Shown: positions 25,619 through 35,860 of the stretch, piece after piece
Numbering within the stretch: position 1 is the first letter of the stretch
How the letters are laid out: every line of letters starts with the position of its first letter
Assembly: GCA_943788875.1 (NCBI GenBank)
Contig: CALSSA010000003.1
Location: 62,001 to 126,000, forward strand
DNA from: an uncultured Pseudomonadales bacterium
GTDB lineage: Bacteria > Pseudomonadota > Gammaproteobacteria > Pseudomonadales > Porticoccaceae
Length of the DNA stretch: 64,000 nucleotides
Reading direction: 5' to 3'
Notes under the pieces: model-generated
What the model saw: the letters and a program-made list of their open reading frames with translations, nothing else
Databases searched by the model: none
Told to the model about the DNA's origin: nothing
Translations under genes and position numbers: made by a program

Positions 25619-26989
25619 TTAAGACAGTGCATCGAGCGCCTCAGTCACCCTACGTACCGGTATCACTGTCATACCTTTGATTGGCTGCTTGGGGGCATTG
25701 CCCGCCGGTACGATCGCGCGGGTAAACCCATGTTTGGCCGCCTCGCGCAAACGCTCCTGACCATTGGCCACTGGGCGAATCTCACCGGCCAGTCCCACCT
25801 CGCCAAATACCACCAGATTCTGGGGTAGCGACTTATCGCGGAAGCTTGAGATCACCGATAAGATCAGTGCCAGATCCGCGCTGGTCTCCAATACTTTGAC
25901 CCCGCCCACCACATTAACAAAAACATCCTGATCACCCACGGCAATGCCACCATGACGATGCAAGACTGCCAGTAACATCGACAGCCGGTTGTGATCTAGA
26001 CCCACAGTAACCCGCCGGGGGTTGCCCAGATGGCTATCATCCACCAGCGCCTGCAACTCAACTAGCAGAGGCCTTGTGCCCTCCCAGACCACCATCACCA
26101 CAGAGCCAGAGGAGACCTCTTCACCCCGCTGTAAAAAAATCGCCGAGGGGTTGGCCACTTCCTTGAGGCCTTTATCAGTCATGGCAAAAACGCCCAATTC
26201 ATTGACGGCGCCAAAGCGGTTTTTATTACTGCGCAATGTGCGGAAATGGGAATCACTGGAGCCTTCCAGCATTAGCGAGCAATCGATCATATGCTCCAAT
26301 ACTTTGGGCCCCGCCAGGGAGCCATCTTTGGTAACATGACCCACCAGAATTAATACAGTGCCGCTCTGCTTGGCAAAGCGTACTAGCATGGAAGCACTCT
26401 CGCGCACCTGTGACACACTGCCCGGGGCCGAGGCCACCTCTTCCATATGCATCACTTGAATGGAGTCCACCACCAGAATTTTGGGCCGCTTCTGCTCGGC
26501 AATTGCACAGACAGTTTCCACCGAGGTCTCCGCCATAATTTCCAGCTTATCCGTAGGTAGGTCGAGTCGATTGGCGCGCATAGCCACCTGCTGAGGGGAT
26601 TCCTCACCAGTGACATACAGAGCAGTATTATTTTCCGCCAGCTTACACAAGGTCTGTAGCAGCAATGTGCTTTTACCAGCTCCAGGTTCACCACCCACCA
26701 AAATAGCTGAGCCAGGCACCAGACCACCTCCAAGCACCAGATCAAGCTCGCCGGTTCCAGTGCTGATACGGGGAATTTCATCTAGTGCAATATCCGCTAG
26801 AGTTTTTACCGCGCCATCTACAGCACCGGCAAACCCCGGGCGCAGTACCTTGCCACCGCGAGCTGCAGGACCCAGGCGCACCTCTGATAGCGTATTCCAT
26901 GCACTACATTCACCGCATTGACCCTGCCATTTGCGATAGTCAGCGCCGCAGTCATTGCACACATAAGCGGATTTGGATTTTGTAGCCAA
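25619..26989 (-). CDS. radA: DNA repair protein RadA
   Basis: A 456-residue RadA (Sms), a RecA-like ATPase that drives branch migration in recombination. A four-cysteine zinc finger is at C11, C14, C25 and C28. The Walker A motif GGEPGAGKS lies at 99-107, the RadA-specific KNRFGAVNELGVF motif follows, and a C-terminal Lon-protease-like domain carries ILSVISSFRD and FGEVGLAGEIRPV. The start is TTG with GGAG upstream. Length is standard. It is divergent from the GNAT gene. Confidence 0.97.
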   Translation of the reverse strand: MATKSKSAYVCNDCGADYRKWQGQCGECSAWNTLSEVRLGPAARGGKVLRPGFAGAVDGAVKTLADIALDEIPRISTGTGELDLVLGGGLVPGSAILVGGEPGAGKSTLLLQTLCKLAENNTALYVTGEESPQQVAMRANRLDLPTDKLEIMAETSVETVCAIAEQKRPKILVVDSIQVMHMEEVASAPGSVSQVRESASMLVRFAKQSGTVLILVGHVTKDGSLAGPKVLEHMIDCSLMLEGSSDSHFRTLRSNKNRFGAVNELGVFAMTDKGLKEVANPSAIFLQRGEEVSSGSVVMVVWEGTRPLLVELQALVDDSHLGNPRRVTVGLDHNRLSMLLAVLHRHGGIAVGDQDVFVNVVGGVKVLETSADLALILSVISSFRDKSLPQNLVVFGEVGLAGEIRPVANGQERLREAAKHGFTRAIVPAGNAPKQPIKGMTVIPVRRVTEALDALS

Positions 26990-28330: not shown

Positions 28331-29458
28331 ATGTCCCTAATTCCCGAAAAACCTATTGCTATCTCGCCCACTCTGGCCGCTACTATCGGCCTGGAGGAGA
28401 CGGTATTGCTGCAATTGCTACAGGAGTGCCTGGCCCATGGCGATGCTGTGCAGAGCAGTGGTTTTAGTTGGGTGACTGTGTCTGGCCAACGGCTGATGGG
28501 GTTGGCACCATTTTGGCGTGAAGATGATATTCGTCGCCTGACTGCAAGCCTTCATGAGAAAGGCTTGCTATTAATTGGCGGCGGCGCATTTTCGGCGCAG
28601 CAGGATTTTCGCTTTGCCTTCAATGAAGGTGCCAGCTCAGCTCAGATATCATCTCAGACAGCGCATCAACCCAGTCAGCCAATCAATCAGTTCAGTAGTC
28701 CCCATTCCGCTAAAACCATTGGTGGTAGCTGGCAGCCCAGTGAAGATGCATTGCGCCAGCTAGCTCAGTTGGGTGTGACCCGGGAGTTTGCCCAGCAGCA
28801 GATCCCACAGTTTGTCGCCTACTGGCGCGAGCGTAATGTCCCGCGGCACAGTTGGGAATCAAAATATATCAAAGAGGTGTGGCGCCAGTGGCAGCAGGCG
28901 GAGAGCACCAATCATCGCCGCCGGCGTGAAGTCTCGGTAACCGGCGAATGGCGACCCTCGACGGATGCAATGGATATTCTGGTTGAGCAGGGTGGCATCA
29001 ATCCTAACTTTATTGAGGATGCGGTGCCGGAGTTTATTCTCTACTGGCGCGATCGCGGTGATGTGTCTAGCACATGGGATTCAAAGTTTATTCAACATGT
29101 GCGCCGTCAGTGGCAGTTTTATACTGGTATGATGGATCAGGACTCAATGCCTCGTTCTATCCCTGCCCAGTGGCAGCCGAAAGAATCTGTCTATGATGTG
29201 TTGCAAATGGCTAATATTGATCGCCAGTTCGCGCAGCAAATTATTCCTGAATTTGTCCTCTACTGGCAGGAAAATGGAACCCCTCAGGTTTCCTGGAGTA
29301 CCAAATTTTTACAGTATGTAAAGCGCCAGTGGGCGCGACACAATCAACCTCAGTCAGCGAGCAGTAATAATGGCAAACAGCACGGATCTCATTCAGAAGG
29401 TCGCCTCCGAGATCGCAGCATCATCGACGCGCTCTCCGATCGCAGCTGGGCAAGCTAA
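28331..29458 (+). CDS. Replication-type protein with three DnaT-like ssDNA-binding repeats
   Basis: A 375-residue protein. Residues 1-85 resemble a winged-helix domain of phage replication initiators (IGLEETVLLQLLQECLAHG, later LTASLHEKGLLLIGG). A Ser/Gln-rich linker follows. Then come three ~55-residue repeats at about 134-188, 207-262 and 281-336, each W-x-P-S/K-x-(D/E), then IPxF or PEFxxYWxxxG, then SWxSKFxxxVxRQW. This is the DnaT DNA-binding domain (PF17948 type), which occurs once in E. coli DnaT. The next gene encodes a lambda-P-like protein and overlaps this one by 89 nt. I infer a role in loading the replicative helicase DnaB. Identification as DopC is possible but unproven. Confidence 0.8.
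   Translation: MSLIPEKPIAISPTLAATIGLEETVLLQLLQECLAHGDAVQSSGFSWVTVSGQRLMGLAPFWREDDIRRLTASLHEKGLLLIGGGAFSAQQDFRFAFNEGASSAQISSQTAHQPSQPINQFSSPHSAKTIGGSWQPSEDALRQLAQLGVTREFAQQQIPQFVAYWRERNVPRHSWESKYIKEVWRQWQQAESTNHRRRREVSVTGEWRPSTDAMDILVEQGGINPNFIEDAVPEFILYWRDRGDVSSTWDSKFIQHVRRQWQFYTGMMDQDSMPRSIPAQWQPKESVYDVLQMANIDRQFAQQIIPEFVLYWQENGTPQVSWSTKFLQYVKRQWARHNQPQSASSNNGKQHGSHSEGRLRDRSIIDALSDRSWAS
28730..29338 (+). repeat. Three diverged in-gene repeats encoding DnaT-like domains
   Basis: Three units at roughly 28730-28894, 28949-29116 and 29171-29338 encode homologous ~55-residue domains. They are similar at protein level (YWRERN / YWRDRG / YWQENG; RQW at each end) but not near-identical in DNA, so the triplication is old and maintained by selection rather than a recent slippage event. 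Confidence 0.8.
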
Positions 29459-30035
29459 ACCGGTTCCAGCCAGCCCTGAACTGATTGATGCTATCAATCA
29501 GATTTTTGCGCTGTTTCAAGTTAACTATCACAACCAGTATTACGCCGCTTTTGGCGATAACACTAAGTCGGAAAATCTGGCGAAGAAACTATGGTTGTCA
29601 AAGCTTGAGCACTTTTCTCCGAGTATTATTATGTCCGCTGCGGAGAAGATTATTGCCGACAGTGAGTACCTGCCAACATTGCACAAAATGTTAAATGCCT
29701 GTCGTTCTGTGGGCATGCCGGCGGGCCTGCCCAATCCGCGCAAGGCCTATCAGGAAGCATGTAATAAACTGAGCCCCAAAGCCGAGCAGCAATGGTCCCA
29801 TGCGGTGGTCTATCTGGCCGGCCGCGACTGCGGCTGGCATCTCTTGGCCAATGAAATTGAGTCCAAGGCACTGCCCGCCTTTACCGAAATCTATCAGCAG
29901 TACTGCGATCTTGTGGTGGTAGGCGAAGAATTCAGCATTGAACCTCCACAGGCACTGCCCGAAACCTCTCAGGTACCAGCCAGCCAAGAACATAACCTTG
30001 AGCAGCTGGGCCGGCTCAAACAGCTACTGGATTAA
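29370..30035 (+). CDS. Phage-lambda-P-like replication protein
   Basis: A 221-residue protein resembling phage lambda replication protein P, which binds DnaB helicase and delivers it to the origin. Visible parallels are INQIFALFQVNYHNQYYAAFG, then AKKLWLSKLEHFSPSIIMSAAEKI and a YLPTLHKMLNACR segment like the P-family LPSPGQFxxWC region. The C-terminal third (EHNLEQLGRLKQLLD) is helical. The start lies inside the preceding gene, giving an 89-nt out-of-frame overlap. aceK follows 9 nt later, so the three genes look like one transcript. No phage genes surround them, which indicates domestication. The assignment rests on recognition by eye. Confidence 0.75.
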   Translation: MANSTDLIQKVASEIAASSTRSPIAAGQAKPVPASPELIDAINQIFALFQVNYHNQYYAAFGDNTKSENLAKKLWLSKLEHFSPSIIMSAAEKIIADSEYLPTLHKMLNACRSVGMPAGLPNPRKAYQEACNKLSPKAEQQWSHAVVYLAGRDCGWHLLANEIESKALPAFTEIYQQYCDLVVVGEEFSIEPPQALPETSQVPASQEHNLEQLGRLKQLLD

Positions 30036-30044
30036 AGGCTGACG

Positions 30045-31814
30045 ATGGCTGGACAACTATTAACCCATAATTCCACTGCGCGGCGCATGGCGAAGACCAT
30101 TTTGAATGGCTTTCGTAGCTATTTTGCCGACTATCTAAACTCCACTCTTAGCGCCAAAGCGCGATTTGAAAAAGCTGACTGGCATGGAGTGCAACAGGCC
30201 AATGTCGATCGGCTTGAGCTTTATAAAGACAAGGTAGCGCAGACGGTACAGTATCTGGGAATGGTGACCAATAAAGATATTGCCAATCTTGAACTGTGGA
30301 GCGAGGCCAAGCGAGCCTATACCCAGCTAGTGTTTAATTTCCCCAATTTTGAAATTGCGGAGACATTTTTTAACTCAGTGTTTAGTGATATCCATGACCA
30401 CGATAAAATCAATGACGATATTATCTATGTGCTGTCATCGCAGCTGATTGAGGCCCCGGAAGCGGAGTACAGTATTTTTGTGCGCTACGAGGGAGAGGGC
30501 TTTCGCGACACCTTTCGACGGATTTTAAAAGAGTCCGAGTTTAGCCTCCCAGGCGAGGATATTGAGCTGGATCTCGACTGTATTATGTCGGTGTTTAATC
30601 AAGAGATAGTACCCCAGCTTACAGGCTCTGCTGAGCAGATTAAATTCGATATTCTGGAATCAACTTTCTATCGCAGCAAGGCCGCCTATATGGTGGGGCG
30701 TGTTGTTGATGGCGATCAGACTTTCCCTATGGCTCTGGTGTTTCTCAATACTGAGAAGGGCAACCTGTATGTGGATACGGCGCTGTTCAATGATGATGAC
30801 CTCAGTGTAGTGTTCAGCTTTACGCGCAATCACTTTATGGTGGATGCGCCTCTGCCCTATCAATATGCACATTTCCTAAAGACATTAATGCCCCGCAAGC
30901 TGGACTATGAGGTCTACAATTCCCTAGGCTTTCCCAAGCATGCCAAAACCGAATTCTACCGACAGCTGGTTGGTCATCTGGGAAATTCCAGCGACCAATT
31001 TATTGTGGCTCCCGGTATTAAGGGCATGGTGATGACTGTATTCACCCTGCCTTCCTACAATATTGTTTTTAAAATTATCAAAGATAAGTTTGCGCCGCCT
31101 AAGGAAGTGACCCATCAAATTGTGCGTGAGAAATATCGACTGGTATCTCGTCACGATCGTATTGGCCGTATGGCTGATACACAGGAATTTGATAATTTGG
31201 TGTTCCCTCTGGATCGTTTTTCTGACGAGTTAATTGCAGAGCTGCAAAAAGTGGCGCAATCGTCGATTGAGATACGCGGTGATAAGCTGGTCATCAAACA
31301 TCTGTATACAGAGCGCTATATGACGCCACTAAACATCTATCTCGAAAGCGCAACAGATGATCAGATACGCAGTGCGATGGAAGAATATGGCAACTGTATC
31401 AAGCAGTTGGCAGCGGCCAATATTTTCCCCGGCGATATGCCCCTTAAGAACTTTGGTGTTACCCGGCATGGCCGCGTAGTGTTTTATGACTATGATGAAA
31501 TCGCCACATTGACTGACTGCAATTTCCGTAAGATTCCGCAACCGCGCAATGAGCAAGAGGAGATGCAATCCGGTACCTGGTACACAGTGGCGCCTGATGA
31601 TATTTTCCCTGAGGAATTCCCCTTATTCTTCTCTGGCAATACCAAAGCTAGAAAAATGTTTGAAGAAATACATGCTGAACTCTATGAAGTGAGTTTCTGG
31701 ACTGATCTGCAGGAACAGATTCGCAATGGCTATGTAGTGGATGTATTCCCCTACCGACGAGCCAAGCGTTTTGATCGCGGAAAGAATTCTGTATTGGAGG
31801 TTTTTTCTGACTAA
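30045..31814 (+). CDS. aceK: Isocitrate dehydrogenase kinase/phosphatase
   Basis: A 589-residue AceK, the bifunctional enzyme that phosphorylates and dephosphorylates isocitrate dehydrogenase and so sets flux between the TCA cycle and the glyoxylate shunt. The N-terminal regulatory half (ILNGFRSYFADYLNSTLSAKARFEKADW) and the kinase half (APGIKGMVMTVFTLPSYNIVFKIIKDKF, later FGVTRHGRVVFYDYDEI) are both present, as is the late AKRFDRGKN tail. Length is standard. In enterobacteria it lies with aceBA; here it follows a replication gene pair, with AAAGG as ribosome site, and no glyoxylate genes are near. Confidence 0.96.
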   Translation: MAGQLLTHNSTARRMAKTILNGFRSYFADYLNSTLSAKARFEKADWHGVQQANVDRLELYKDKVAQTVQYLGMVTNKDIANLELWSEAKRAYTQLVFNFPNFEIAETFFNSVFSDIHDHDKINDDIIYVLSSQLIEAPEAEYSIFVRYEGEGFRDTFRRILKESEFSLPGEDIELDLDCIMSVFNQEIVPQLTGSAEQIKFDILESTFYRSKAAYMVGRVVDGDQTFPMALVFLNTEKGNLYVDTALFNDDDLSVVFSFTRNHFMVDAPLPYQYAHFLKTLMPRKLDYEVYNSLGFPKHAKTEFYRQLVGHLGNSSDQFIVAPGIKGMVMTVFTLPSYNIVFKIIKDKFAPPKEVTHQIVREKYRLVSRHDRIGRMADTQEFDNLVFPLDRFSDELIAELQKVAQSSIEIRGDKLVIKHLYTERYMTPLNIYLESATDDQIRSAMEEYGNCIKQLAAANIFPGDMPLKNFGVTRHGRVVFYDYDEIATLTDCNFRKIPQPRNEQEEMQSGTWYTVAPDDIFPEEFPLFFSGNTKARKMFEEIHAELYEVSFWTDLQEQIRNGYVVDVFPYRRAKRFDRGKNSVLEVFSD

Positions 31815-31847: not shown

Positions 31848-32342
31848 TTAACGGTAAGGCAATATTTCTCTGCGCTCTGCAGCGTTAATCTCAATTCCCT
31901 CAATACCTATATTGCTCAATGTCCAGTGCTGGTCAATTTTATCGCCGCGGCGAAAGCTACGGCCATTGGCAAACAGACGATTTGATGCCGAGCCTTCATC
32001 AATATACATATGCCCTGAAATCTGCAACTGTGGCAGGCTCAAAGCTTTGTCCACTAAGTTTGGCATTGGCGTCGGCGGTGCCACTTCAGCGCTTACCAAG
32101 CCCGGCTGCACTGGTGTTGAATCTATCAATGGCTGAGGCAAATTGAGCATGCGCGAATAAATCAGTAATGCACCTAGCACCAGCATTAGAAATGCCAGTA
32201 GTAACAAATATCTGGGTAGGTCAGACTTGGATGGTGCCTGATAGGGGTCCCAATTGGAGCTGGCAAAGTCATCTAGTTCTTTGGGGTCTTCCCGCAGACG
32301 ATCGCGCTCGGCTTTTTTTAACGCATCAAGGATATAGGACAT
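31848..32342 (-). CDS. gspB: Type II secretion protein GspB
   Basis: A 164-residue GspB, the bitopic partner of GspA that helps the secretin cross or anchor to the cell wall. The N-terminal signature MSYILDALKKAERDRLRED is diagnostic. One membrane helix follows (YLLLLAFLMLVLGALLIYS), then a Pro-rich linker and the C-terminal domain LQISGHMYIDEGSASNRLFANG typical of GspB. Its ATG overlaps the gspA stop. It is the last gene of the secretion operon and converges with aceK over 33 nt with no clear terminator. Confidence 0.93.
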   Translation of the reverse strand: MSYILDALKKAERDRLREDPKELDDFASSNWDPYQAPSKSDLPRYLLLLAFLMLVLGALLIYSRMLNLPQPLIDSTPVQPGLVSAEVAPPTPMPNLVDKALSLPQLQISGHMYIDEGSASNRLFANGRSFRRGDKIDQHWTLSNIGIEGIEINAAERREILPYR

Positions 32343-33922
32343 TAGTCAGGCTCCTTTAGAAGCAGGGGGATGCCCTGCTCTGTTAGCTGATTTAGCCGCA
32401 GCAGAGTCTCGCGACCCACCACACCATCGGCCTTAATATCTTGTTGCTGCTGAAAGCTGAGTACCTGATCTACGATGGCCTGGCTATAACGGCCGGCGCT
32501 AATAATCGCCTCGGCATCTTTATCTACAGCGGCTAACTTTGACTGCAACCAAGCCACTGCCTGAGGATCTGTGTCTCCCAGCGTTAAGCTATCTATCTGC
32601 TTTGGCGGCCGCCATAGGTACAGAAAGGTACCGGACCAGTTATCGACAAAGGTCTGCTTATCCAACTCAGTAGACTCTTCGCCATACATAACACTGACGC
32701 CAAACCGATTTAGTTGACTCAGCAACACACTTTTTAAATAGCCATCCTGGTCTTTAATACGAATGACACCTGGGCGATTGATAACTTTCAGATCTGCCAG
32801 ACTAGCGTTTCTAATCAATTCTGCACGCAGCCCATAGCGACTCGCGAGAGCCACTGTCTCTTCCTGAGAATATAACTCACCCACATCCACCGACCACAGT
32901 TCAAAGAGCCCGGAATAAGGGCTTATAACAGCTTTATTCAATATTGGTACCACAGGCGCGGAGGGTGCAGAATTTTCTGATATAGATTTCTCGACTGAAG
33001 AGTTACTGGACTGTACAGCATAGAACCCTATGGCCAAAACAATTAGCATCAAAGGAAAAACCCAATATCGCCAATGTTGCAGAATCGGGACAGGAGTGTT
33101 GCTACTGCCCAAAATCTCTACGGCAGCCTGCTTGAGTAACTTTGGCGTCACGACTCTGATTTCAGTCGAGTAGGCGGCTAGCAATGAATGCTGACAGATC
33201 AGATTAATCAGCCTTGGAACACCGTTGGTTAATCTAAATAAAGTGGCCATGCAAGCGCGATCAAAAATGGGCCTCGTGGCACCAGCTCTGTGGAGCCGGT
33301 GATTAATGTAGTTGGCGAGATCGTCTTTAACCAGAGGCAACAGATGAAAGCGTGACACTACCCGCTGATTGAGTTGTCGCAGTTCTTTCTGCGCCAGGAT
33401 CTCTAGCAATTCTGGCTGCCCAACCAATAATATATGCAGCAGTTTGTGAGTGTGAGTTTCTAAATTACTCAGCAGGCGCAGAGTTTCCAGTACTTCTGCG
33501 CTGAGGTTTTGTGCCTCTTCAATAACAATTAATGTCTTTTTGCCCTCGGCATGGGCCTGCAACAAATTCTGATTGAGAGCGTCGGTACAGACTTTCGAAA
33601 AGGACAGGCCCTGTGTGCTGGGCAGGTCGACCCCCAGCTCATGGCAGATGCTGGCGAGCGCATCTGAAACCTTAAGTTTGCTGTTAAGCACATAGGCCAC
33701 GCGGACATGGGCTGGTAGTCGCTTGAGCATGGTGCGGGTCAAGGTAGTCTTACCTGTACCTACCTCACCGGTGAGCAAAATAAAGCCACCCTCTCGATCA
33801 AGGCCGTATTTTAGATGAGCAACGGCCTGACGATGATGATTACTGGGGTATAGAAACCCAGGATCCGGAACTATCGAAAAGGGCTCTCGTGCAAGCCCAA
33901 AATGCTTGAGATATATGCTCAT
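32342..33922 (-). CDS. gspA: Type II secretion ATPase GspA (ExeA-like) with peptidoglycan-binding domain
   Basis: A 526-residue ExeA/GspA protein that works with GspB in assembling the secretin multimer through the peptidoglycan layer. The N-terminal AAA ATPase starts MSIYLKHFGLAREPFSIVPDPGFLYPS and has Walker A GEVGTGKT (52-59), Walker B LIVIEEAQNL and sensor RVVSRFHL. A membrane helix (WVFPLMLIVLAIGFYAV) near residue 300 is followed by a periplasmic part and a C-terminal peptidoglycan-binding repeat (FQQQQDIKADGVVGRETLLRLNQL). It lies between gspD and gspB in a tight operon. Confidence 0.93.
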   Translation of the reverse strand: MSIYLKHFGLAREPFSIVPDPGFLYPSNHHRQAVAHLKYGLDREGGFILLTGEVGTGKTTLTRTMLKRLPAHVRVAYVLNSKLKVSDALASICHELGVDLPSTQGLSFSKVCTDALNQNLLQAHAEGKKTLIVIEEAQNLSAEVLETLRLLSNLETHTHKLLHILLVGQPELLEILAQKELRQLNQRVVSRFHLLPLVKDDLANYINHRLHRAGATRPIFDRACMATLFRLTNGVPRLINLICQHSLLAAYSTEIRVVTPKLLKQAAVEILGSSNTPVPILQHWRYWVFPLMLIVLAIGFYAVQSSNSSVEKSISENSAPSAPVVPILNKAVISPYSGLFELWSVDVGELYSQEETVALASRYGLRAELIRNASLADLKVINRPGVIRIKDQDGYLKSVLLSQLNRFGVSVMYGEESTELDKQTFVDNWSGTFLYLWRPPKQIDSLTLGDTDPQAVAWLQSKLAAVDKDAEAIISAGRYSQAIVDQVLSFQQQQDIKADGVVGRETLLRLNQLTEQGIPLLLKEPD

Positions 33923-33931
33923 AGCGCCGTC

Positions 33932-35860
33932 TTACTCGGTTGCTTGACCCTGCTGTCTAATTTCCTCTAACTGTCGAGTGATTACACCCTCAGTCTTGCC
34001 TTTCAGATCTCTGGTGATCAGATGATCAAATTTCTTGCGCGATAATTTACGCGCATCTTCCGCCGTACGAATAATAGTGGGGCGAATAAACATCATCAGC
34101 ACAGTCTTACTCTCACCTTTTTTGGAAGAGCGAAACAGCCGCCCCAACAATGGAATATCGCCCAGCAATGGTACTTTTGAAGCGCTGTTATTTGTTTGAT
34201 CTTCAATAAGACCACCCAGAATCAACAGCTCACCGTCCTGAATCATGACATTGGTTTGCATGGTGCTCTTTGAGGTAGTTTGCAGGCCTGGCTCACCGCT
34301 TTTAACTTTTGAAGATTCTTGCTCAATCTCCAGACGCACGCCATTGCCCTTGCTGATCTGCGGTTTCACTTTCAGCATCACACCCACTTCTTCACGATTG
34401 ACCGTAGTGAATGGATTGCCGCTGGACGTATTGTTACTGATGCTGGAAAAACTGCCTGTGACAAAAGGCACTTCCTCGCCCACACTTAATGTCGCCTCTT
34501 CATTGTCCAGAGTGACCACCGAGGGTGTAGATAGAATATTCGTAGCACCATCGGTTTTCAGAGCCTGAATCAAAATACCCATACCTTTGCCGGTATTCTG
34601 ATTAAAGTCACCGGCTATACCCACTGCAGACTTTGGCAAACCACCGACAATATTGGTCAATGTCGACTCATCGACTTCTCCATCTGCAGCCACTCCTAAC
34701 AACGAAGATAGCAGCTGATCAAAATTAGTCAGATAGCCACCGCGATTCTTACTCGCGTAGGCCAGTTCTGTACTCAGAGTTTTTGCCTGTGACTCAGATA
34801 GCTCTGCAATAACAGCCTCAATCAAAACTTGAGGCCTGGATAGATCAAGTTTGCTCACTACATTTCTGATCTCTCGCACAACCGCTGAAGGAGCAGCTAC
34901 GATAAGAGCATTATTGAGTTCATCAATTTCAATCTTGTAAGCACTGCCGCTCTTGTTCGCGCCCTTGGTTTTGGTCCCAGCCTCACCGGCCAGGCGCAAA
35001 AAGATTTCGGACTGCAACATTCCCTCAACTATGGGCTTCATTTCTGCAGCACGGGAGTAATTTAGATAGATAACTTCAACACTGCCTTTTTTGGTAGAGG
35101 GAAGATCTAAAGTTTTAAGCATGGTTTTGAAAGTGACTCTGGCCACACTCGGGCCACTGACGATCACTCGATTATTGAGCCCATCCTCTACCAGAGACAG
35201 ATTCTGTTTCTGCAACTGCTTGAGCTGCCCTGCAATATGTACAGCTTCTGCCGCGGAAATATGCTCTAGGTTAATCACTTCGACCAGACTCTCTTCTGGA
35301 TCATCCATCTCAGCAATCAATCGCTTAATCCGATCAACATTAGTGCGCACATCGGAAATCACCAGATAGTTACTCTGACTGAACGCCTGCAATCTTGCGC
35401 CATTACTCATCATTGGCTTGAGTACTGGCACTAATGTCGCGGCCTGAACATAATTAATTTTAAGGAGTTCAGTCTGCAGTTGGTTTTTACCACTGCCACC
35501 AGCAAAATTAAATGCCTGATTAAAAGGTACGATTCGAGTTACTGCTCCGTCTGCAATGGCCTGAAAACCCTGCACCTGAATAGCTGACAGCACTGCTTCA
35601 TAAAGCAGCGAGGAGTCAATCGCCTCTGGGGCAATAATGGTGACCTTGCCTTTGACTCTTGGATCCAGAACAAATGACTTGCCAGTAATCTCTGCGACAC
35701 TTTCAATAACACTGCGGATATCTGCATCACGAAAATTAATTCGCACCTGTTCAGCTGCCCAGGCTTCTGCCATAAGGGCAAAGGATAAAAACAGCGCGCC
35801 AAATATCTGCGCAGTACTGCTGTAGCCAGCGGTCGTAGCTCGTTCTTTTATGGTTTTCAT
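33932..35860 (-). CDS. gspD: Type II secretion secretin GspD
   Basis: A 642-residue secretin that forms the outer-membrane channel of the type II system. A signal peptide (GALFLSFALMAEAWA) precedes the N0 domain (VRINFRDADIRSVIESVAEITGKSFVLDPRVKGKVTI), three N-domains (VINLEHISAAEAVHIA, VIYLNYSRAAEMKPIVEGML) and the secretin core ending QVLIEAVIAELSE, GEEVPFVTGSF, LKVKPQI and PLLGDIPLLGRLFRSS. All parts are in order and length is typical. No pilotin gene is seen nearby; GspA/GspB at the operon end may support its assembly. Confidence 0.97.
   Translation of the reverse strand: MKTIKERATTAGYSSTAQIFGALFLSFALMAEAWAAEQVRINFRDADIRSVIESVAEITGKSFVLDPRVKGKVTIIAPEAIDSSLLYEAVLSAIQVQGFQAIADGAVTRIVPFNQAFNFAGGSGKNQLQTELLKINYVQAATLVPVLKPMMSNGARLQAFSQSNYLVISDVRTNVDRIKRLIAEMDDPEESLVEVINLEHISAAEAVHIAGQLKQLQKQNLSLVEDGLNNRVIVSGPSVARVTFKTMLKTLDLPSTKKGSVEVIYLNYSRAAEMKPIVEGMLQSEIFLRLAGEAGTKTKGANKSGSAYKIEIDELNNALIVAAPSAVVREIRNVVSKLDLSRPQVLIEAVIAELSESQAKTLSTELAYASKNRGGYLTNFDQLLSSLLGVAADGEVDESTLTNIVGGLPKSAVGIAGDFNQNTGKGMGILIQALKTDGATNILSTPSVVTLDNEEATLSVGEEVPFVTGSFSSISNNTSSGNPFTTVNREEVGVMLKVKPQISKGNGVRLEIEQESSKVKSGEPGLQTTSKSTMQTNVMIQDGELLILGGLIEDQTNNSASKVPLLGDIPLLGRLFRSSKKGESKTVLMMFIRPTIIRTAEDARKLSRKKFDHLITRDLKGKTEGVITRQLEEIRQQGQATE

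Follow-up and report, generated by a model that had tools for sequence, protein, structure and literature searches.

A chromosomal gene pair of phage O/P type, probably DopC/DopE, as putative DnaB loader of an uncultured Porticoccaceae bacterium

Helicase loading is essential in bacteria, and two of the factors involved, DciA and DnaC/I, have already been studied in the laboratory. Another pair of genes, dopC and dopE, was reportedly named in 2017 by Brezellec et al., who are said to have derived the two from genes O and P of phage lambda. According to a 2026 paper (PMC13326638), bacteria without AAA+ loaders generally rely on DciA or DopE, and a 2016 study (PMC5109545) reports that dciA and dna[CI] are both missing from members of the order Cellvibrionales and leaves the missing factor open. 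In lambda itself, O and P act at an origin. P is suggested to bind to the C-terminal region of O, and an O mutant of 294 of the 299 residues is inactive; the N-terminal part of P is assumed to bind O, and its C-terminal part binds DnaB (PMC6022878). DnaT is a restart protein of E. coli and a suggested recruiter of DnaB/DnaC. Its C-terminal domain builds a filament on ssDNA in the preprimosome (2026 cryo-EM), and how the DnaT preprimosome recruits the helicase was stated in that year to be unknown (PMC13377028). The DnaD protein of B. subtilis contacts earlier and later initiation factors through its N-terminal domain and C-terminal tail (PMC13326638). A literature search found no experiment on a helicase loader of the phage-derived kind and nothing on a triple DnaT array, the tail or the gene overlap described below, the 2017 dopC/dopE paper and most subscription journals lying outside its coverage; within the same coverage, neither the series of DopC forms nor the missing PriB of Dop genomes was found.

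The present analysis concerns two adjoining genes in a 64,000-nucleotide stretch (the window, meaning all of the DNA analysed at this site) from an uncultured member of the Porticoccaceae, whose genome of 2.48 Mb in 14 contigs is 94.85% complete. A first-pass annotation had described a gene for a winged-helix protein with three DnaT domains adjoining a lambda-P-like gene, and this is borne out by the open reading frames, by Pfam and PHROG matches and by the AlphaFold model of the DopC head (Table 1). It had also guessed at the dopC/dopE system, which is supported by the presence of a P-family loader beside an initiator-type gene, on the chromosome of a host in which no dciA or dnaC/dnaI was found over threshold. 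The pair is very probably chromosomal DopC/DopE, that is, a resident initiator-loader of the phage O/P type that replaces DciA as the putative DnaB loader, and as such it would be essential to its host. The identification draws on the 2016 account of the Cellvibrionales, the placing of the Porticoccaceae within that order by NCBI taxonomy, the naming of a DopE family in 2026 and the 2017 abstract. Values of dN/dS were 0.03-0.12 outside the overlap (eight comparisons, where dS was unsaturated), so dopC and dopE are not a chance pair of open reading frames.

Table 1. Features of the dopC/dopE locus (positions within the window)
Feature	Position	Strand	Basis
radA-like gene, context only	25619..26989	-	Pfam; frequent dopCE neighbour in three-DnaT families
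dopC, initiator/adaptor protein, 375 aa	28331..29458	+	ORF; PF17948 x3
Winged-helix-like N-terminal domain, about aa 2-97	28334..28621	+	phrog_6493 at aa 2-82; AlphaFold
DnaT-type domain 1, aa 131-194	28721..28912	+	PF17948
DnaT-type domain 2, aa 204-268	28940..29134	+	PF17948
DnaT-type domain 3, aa 278-341	29162..29353	+	PF17948
Tail LSDRSWAS, aa 368-375	29432..29455	+	After low-confidence linker; resembles lambda O end
Dual-coding overlap, dopC 3' end / dopE 5' end, 89 nt	29370..29458	+	Start choice, dS
dopE, lambda-P-type helicase loader, 221 aa	29370..30035	+	PF06992, phrog_109; relatives' profile matches lambda P
DopE helical half, aa 42-102, weakly SPP1 G39P-like	29493..29675	+	PF11417, PDB 1no1
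aceK, context only	30045..31814	+	Pfam; beside pair in close relatives

DopC was matched by the Pfam DnaT model (PF17948) over three stretches at E 6.2e-67 (221.7 bits, cut-off 25), and the three copies also matched separately (E 2.2e-24 to 7.9e-20); its profile matched the E. coli DnaT structures weakly (0.06-0.18), although the Pfam domain matches were strong. The match to phrog_6493, a phage DnaD-like loader family, had an E-value of 2.2e-5, and Pfam DnaD gave no match. The AlphaFold model (pLDDT 72, pTM 0.30) has three helical domains, a low-confidence linker and tail, and an N-terminal domain (aa 13-97) with the winged-helix-like order H-H-E-E-H-H-E-E. Nothing was found with the lambda O model (PF04492) at E ≤ 1, so that descent of the whole of DopC from lambda O finds no support in this model; the tail and the gene order resemble lambda O. 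Neither DopC nor DopE matched DciA (PF05258) or the AAA+ domain of DnaC/DnaI (PF01695-like).

The tripled DnaT domain is the commonest form in the order and not special to this genome: among the 70 genomes with DnaT in the order sample described below, 48 have exactly three DnaT matches, 17 have one, one has two and four have more than three. The loci contain DopC as a winged helix with three DnaT domains, as a longer one-DnaT protein (families f6, f27 and f38; open frames of 289-336 aa), or as a DnaT-only protein (families f2, f8 and f35; 153-162 aa), and the resident protein of the f35 genome that was read closely carries a single DnaT domain. When the 72 domains of 24 three-DnaT proteins were compared between families, 69 had as their nearest counterpart the domain at the same position in the array, which indicates that the triplication is old. 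As for a viral source of the repeat, no open reading frame with more than one DnaT domain was present in 49 viral and 8 phage or prophage loci, and a single DnaT domain was present in 8 of their 44 distinct upstream open reading frames.

The P and DnaT families on which the first-pass annotation had staked its reading were both matched by profile searches (PF17948 for DopC; PF06992 and phrog_109 for DopE). DopE matched lambda P (PF06992) at E 3e-6, with 27.5 bits against a cut-off of 26, and the P-like helicase loaders of phrog_109 at E 2.1e-15; a profile made from DopE together with its P-type relatives at the fetched loci matched phage lambda P at 8.2e-15. Its helical half gave a value below the cut-off with PF11417 (E 0.0046, 17.9 bits, cut-off 22). 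The best PDB match of the DopE profile was SPP1 G39P (1no1, E 0.0057), and there was none to lambda P in the PDB at E ≤ 1. The structure model of DopE was poor (pLDDT 46) and was therefore not used. In the six-frame search PF06992 missed the dopE of this genome and many others, finding 25 of 115 genomes, and for this reason a custom DopE profile was used (72 of 115). A DopE tree of 50 rows separated three groups: 25 rows of the three-DnaT type together with three from outside the order (support 98/99), f2 with f8 and f35 (99/97), and f6 with f27 and f38 (100/97). The last of these, the winged-helix one-DnaT group, stands beside P of Halomonas phage QHHSV-1 (98/94), and G159 forms a very long branch. 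A single chromosomal DopE clade is not rejected by the AU test (p 0.244), and accordingly no claim is made for one or for several domestications.

The ATG at which dopE begins is the only start that leaves the P domain whole, and among 68 distinct pairs, counting phage-like copies, 60 have an in-frame ATG that lies 50-110 nt within dopC. In eight comparisons between close relatives, dS within the overlap was 0.10-0.42 in either frame, as against 0.40 to saturated outside it; for the nearest relative (L061) the values were 0.17 and 0.10 inside, and 0.40 and 0.67 outside. The overlap comprises only about 29 codons, over which the lowered dS in either frame indicates that both frames are constrained.

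The end of DopC is strongly conserved. DRSWAS is invariant in 26 of 26 rows of the Porticoccaceae type, and D-x-S-W, followed by 0-12 residues, stands near the end of all 44 distinct three-DnaT tails. The pattern [DN]-x-[SDG]-W occurs within the last 25 residues of 58 of 59 distinct DopC tails, taken over every form and with phage-like copies counted in, a figure that describes rather than tests, since the pattern was defined after inspecting the tails and the rows are related; the same motif occurs in 7 of 853 other open reading frames of at least 150 aa from the same loci. Four tails from outside the order, excluded from the 59, comprise one that fits this pattern strictly and three with D-x-x-W and another residue before the W. 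The strict pattern was also present in 9 of 44 distinct upstream open reading frames of phages, the pattern of locus L190 lying outside the last 25 residues. A tail with W is common to DopC, to lambda O, which ends LTNTDWIYGVDL, and to the O protein of Pseudomonas phage PAJU2, which ends NDTSWAVGLEQDLF. The inactive lambda O truncation, with its last five residues gone, retains W293 (of 299), and 31 of the 44 three-DnaT tails end two residues past the W, so the likeness supports the region and not a single residue, and the stretch known to be essential in lambda O is mostly missing from DopC. By analogy with lambda, the DopC tail is a candidate DopE-binding peptide, and this is the least secure step of the proposed mechanism.

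Related tails were seen on two viral contigs. In one (L191:4313-5378) an O-like gene ending ITDRSWAE overlaps by 80 nt a short P-like gene that lacks the C-terminal half, and this phage possibly reaches the DopE or DnaB of its host via the similar tail. The other (L190:4513-5549) encodes a protein of 154 aa that has a C-terminal domain of O-like kind together with the W tail, as LTDCSWATGLV; after it comes a P gene that is, by E-value, the best viral relative of DopE (37% identity); by eye, the genes of this contig are Mu-like.

That no phage genes surround the pair, and that the housekeeping gene aceK follows it directly, had both been proposed from the first inspection and were confirmed, the Pfam-scanned flanks consisting of a GNAT gene, a short-chain dehydrogenase gene, the radA-like gene and aceK. 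Beyond aceK, on the opposite strand (window 31848-35860), are type II secretion-like genes, named by eye, and relatives of these lie near the pair in most of 32 named loci. The 32 loci come from a contig scan with the DopE sequence, which reaches close relatives only, and are labelled Porticoccaceae (18), SAR92 (7), HTCC2207 (2), Cellvibrionales (3), Pseudomonadales (1) and Flavobacteriaceae (1). All 32 have aceK 3' of dopE, 31 have dopC and 30 have three DnaT domains, the loci without dopC (L068) and with two DnaT domains (L070) being cut by contig ends. For three further genomes of the family, aceK was present in L151 and absent in L150, and L149 was cut by a contig end. Of 23 loci from three-DnaT-type families (L132-L151 and L162-L164, of which L164 scores two DnaT domains), 18 had radA in the fetched flank; of 10 one-DnaT loci (L152-L161), none did. 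Twenty flanking open reading frames from 11 loci gave a Pfam match (E ≤ 1e-8) in 17 cases and none in three, the identities including metG, an Mrp-like NTPase, DAHP synthase (twice), alanine racemase, metW, a response regulator, and transport and other domains. None of the 17 gave an indication of phage, one being a glucosaminidase-domain protein of a family that phages also use. Prophage genes beside the pair in relatives, which would have spoken against the first-pass annotation, were thus absent among the Pfam-identified flanks.

The same annotation had asked whether another loader is encoded elsewhere. In this genome there was no PF05258 match at E ≤ 5 and no dnaC/dnaI over cut-off; three IstB/DnaC-type matches below cut-off were to DnaA (by eye), PhoH (Pfam) and ClpB (by eye), and as a control the IstB/DnaC model matched both E. 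coli and B. subtilis. With the assembly short of complete, this absence is strong only together with that in relatives. In 115 genomes drawn evenly from the GTDB order, DnaT domains were present in 70 and DciA (PF05258, E ≤ 0.001) in 35, and no genome had both (Fisher p 8e-21, uncorrected for kinship). By family, 28 have DnaT/DopE and 16 DciA, with none common to both. The DopE profile matched 72 genomes, namely all 70 with DnaT and two with DciA (G053 and G060) in which the P match is weak or short. Ten genomes have neither system. Four of these (G052, G070, G088, G092) belong to Dop families and are 75-96% complete; weak DciA-like matches were found in frames of 157-161 aa in G035 (E 0.006), G109 (0.047) and G080 (0.46), and in a longer frame in G043 (0.69), and G022 and G045 have neither a DciA-like match nor a Dop pair. 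Family f43 (G043, G080, G109) combines PriB over cut-off with DciA below threshold and has no Dop pair.

At the level of the class, the DopE profile at 1e-10 matched 15 of 369 genomes, this one included, and DciA was found in 298. A DopC-like open reading frame adjoins DopE in G117 and G159, with three DnaT domains each, and in G288 and G394 (1.2 and 1.3 Mb), with two each; none of these four genomes with resident-looking pairs is among the DciA matches. In G117 the DopE match (L189:5985-6494) spans only the first half of the profile. Seven genomes with a DopE match also have DciA (G154, G197, G202, G213, G294, G380, G441), and in G213 and G380 an open reading frame with one weak DnaT match lies beside the P gene (L177:717-2061, reverse strand, and L173:606-2151, respectively), so that a DnaT/P pair and DciA can co-reside at class level; these two pairs are perhaps prophage copies. 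G274, G332 and G431 are likewise missing from the DciA matches, and the stretch inspected there, roughly 3 kb, contained no standard pair. In G274 (1.7 Mb) a 397-aa open reading frame at L175:709-1902 runs from a winged-helix-like part into the first half of a P-type loader and has no DnaT domain; it is a possible natural fusion of DopC and DopE.

Because the families of DopC and DopE are both phage-related, and some genomes hold P-type genes in addition to the resident one (e.g. G006, G034, G071, G100), it might be thought that the pair is a remnant of a prophage or other mobile element with no housekeeping role. Such a remnant would be expected at scattered sites with phage neighbours, which is the reverse of what was seen at the 32 named loci; moreover, the pair extends through 28 families of the order, radA is its frequent neighbour in the three-DnaT families, it is under purifying selection, and its G+C (0.525 and 0.518) resembles that of the window (0.497). 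Synteny, selection and distribution led us to reject this explanation, and its probability is minimal. Hardly greater is the chance that the real loader is a DciA too divergent for Pfam, or encoded in the unassembled part of the genome, with the pair as an auxiliary. PF05258 is indeed a weak model, G072 being matched at 7.4e-4 and G035 at just 0.006, but it found DciA in none of the 70 Dop genomes as against 35 of the 45 others, and the search of this genome for a divergent resident loader, down to the permissive threshold given above, did not find one.

A more serious rival places the pair mainly in replication restart, where it would deliver DnaB to broken forks in the manner of PriA-DnaT, with loading at oriC left to DnaA alone or to an unknown loader. 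The role of DnaT in E. coli as a restart protein and suggested recruiter of DnaB/DnaC (PMC13377028) favours this, and so does the distribution of the other restart proteins. Gamma-type PriB passed its cut-off in 13 of the 115 genomes, with G018 and G035 as plausible further cases, and none of these is a Dop genome (0 of 70; Fisher p 1.5e-6, uncorrected); PriC was over cut-off in none of the 115, and this genome gave no match at E ≤ 0.001 to TIGR04418 (PriB, a partner in PriA-PriB-DnaT restart). However, PriB passes its cut-off in no more than 10 of the 35 DciA genomes, so Dop genomes are not alone in lacking it. The lambda proteins O and P act at an origin (PMC6022878), and the lack of any genome in the order sample with both DciA and DnaT/DopE is what replacement of an initiation loader would produce, and not what a factor of restart alone would. 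A role confined mainly to restart is therefore judged unlikely.

If the pair is, as we prefer, the resident DopC/DopE loader, a mechanism can be sketched. The winged helix of DopC would dock on an initiation platform, the candidates being duplex DNA, DnaA at oriC and, where a fork has stalled, PriA. The DnaT array would hold the single strand as a pre-joined piece, three domains long, of the ssDNA filament that E. coli assembles from separate DnaT subunits. The flexible tail might bind the N-terminal half of DopE, in the way suggested for the C-terminal region of lambda O and P, and the C-terminal half of DopE would grip DnaB and deliver it to the exposed strand. More speculatively, DopC could unite in one chain the jobs of several E. 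coli proteins, with a head for docking that is DnaD/lambda-O-like, a built-in DnaT filament of three units and a tail for recruitment, and could serve with DopE both initiation at oriC and PriA-dependent restart. We offer this as a tentative proposal, and it is weakened by the inactive lambda O truncation that keeps its W. If true, it would explain why there is no DciA, DnaC or PriB, nor, in genomes with exactly three DnaT domains, a separate DnaT, and the dual-coding overlap would tie the DopC tail to the start of its partner DopE. Bacteria of the SAR92 type are common in the sea. The anatomy of DopC makes the proposal testable, through the eight-residue tail, the single-chain filament and the exclusion with DciA, and a DnaT array with a candidate recruitment tail beside a loader gene also bears on how the DnaT preprimosome recruits the helicase.

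Compared with described systems, the locus shares features with several. The initiator of Stenotrophomonas phage StM171 has 25% identity to DopC over residues 2-260, but it has one DnaT domain and no W tail, and the next gene is RusA instead of P. B. subtilis DnaD resembles DopC in having contact-making parts at both ends, an N-terminal domain and a C-terminal tail, and DopC has its N-terminal match to a phage DnaD-like family, whereas DopC lacks a Pfam DnaD match and has a P-type loader as its partner. The repeats of DopC belong with the DNA-binding domain family of E. coli DnaT (PF17948); DopC differs in having three such domains per chain, another N-terminal domain and an added tail, in a genome with no DnaC over cut-off and no PriB found. 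With phage lambda the locus shares adjacent initiator and loader genes, a loader of P type, and LTNTDW near the end of O in place of LSDRSW at the end of DopC. The differences are that O has no detected DnaT domain, that it extends six residues past the W where most three-DnaT DopC proteins extend two, and that the overlap of O and P is 4 nt as against 89 nt for dopC and dopE. The C-terminal domain of lambda O looked DnaT-like by eye, a candidate likeness to which hhalign gave 0.1% probability both ways; the O profile held only two effective sequences, and the kinship is thus unsupported, not disproved. With the DopC/DopE system, finally, the locus has in common that the pair is resident, is of phage O/P type and occurs in bacteria that lack dciA and dnaC/I.
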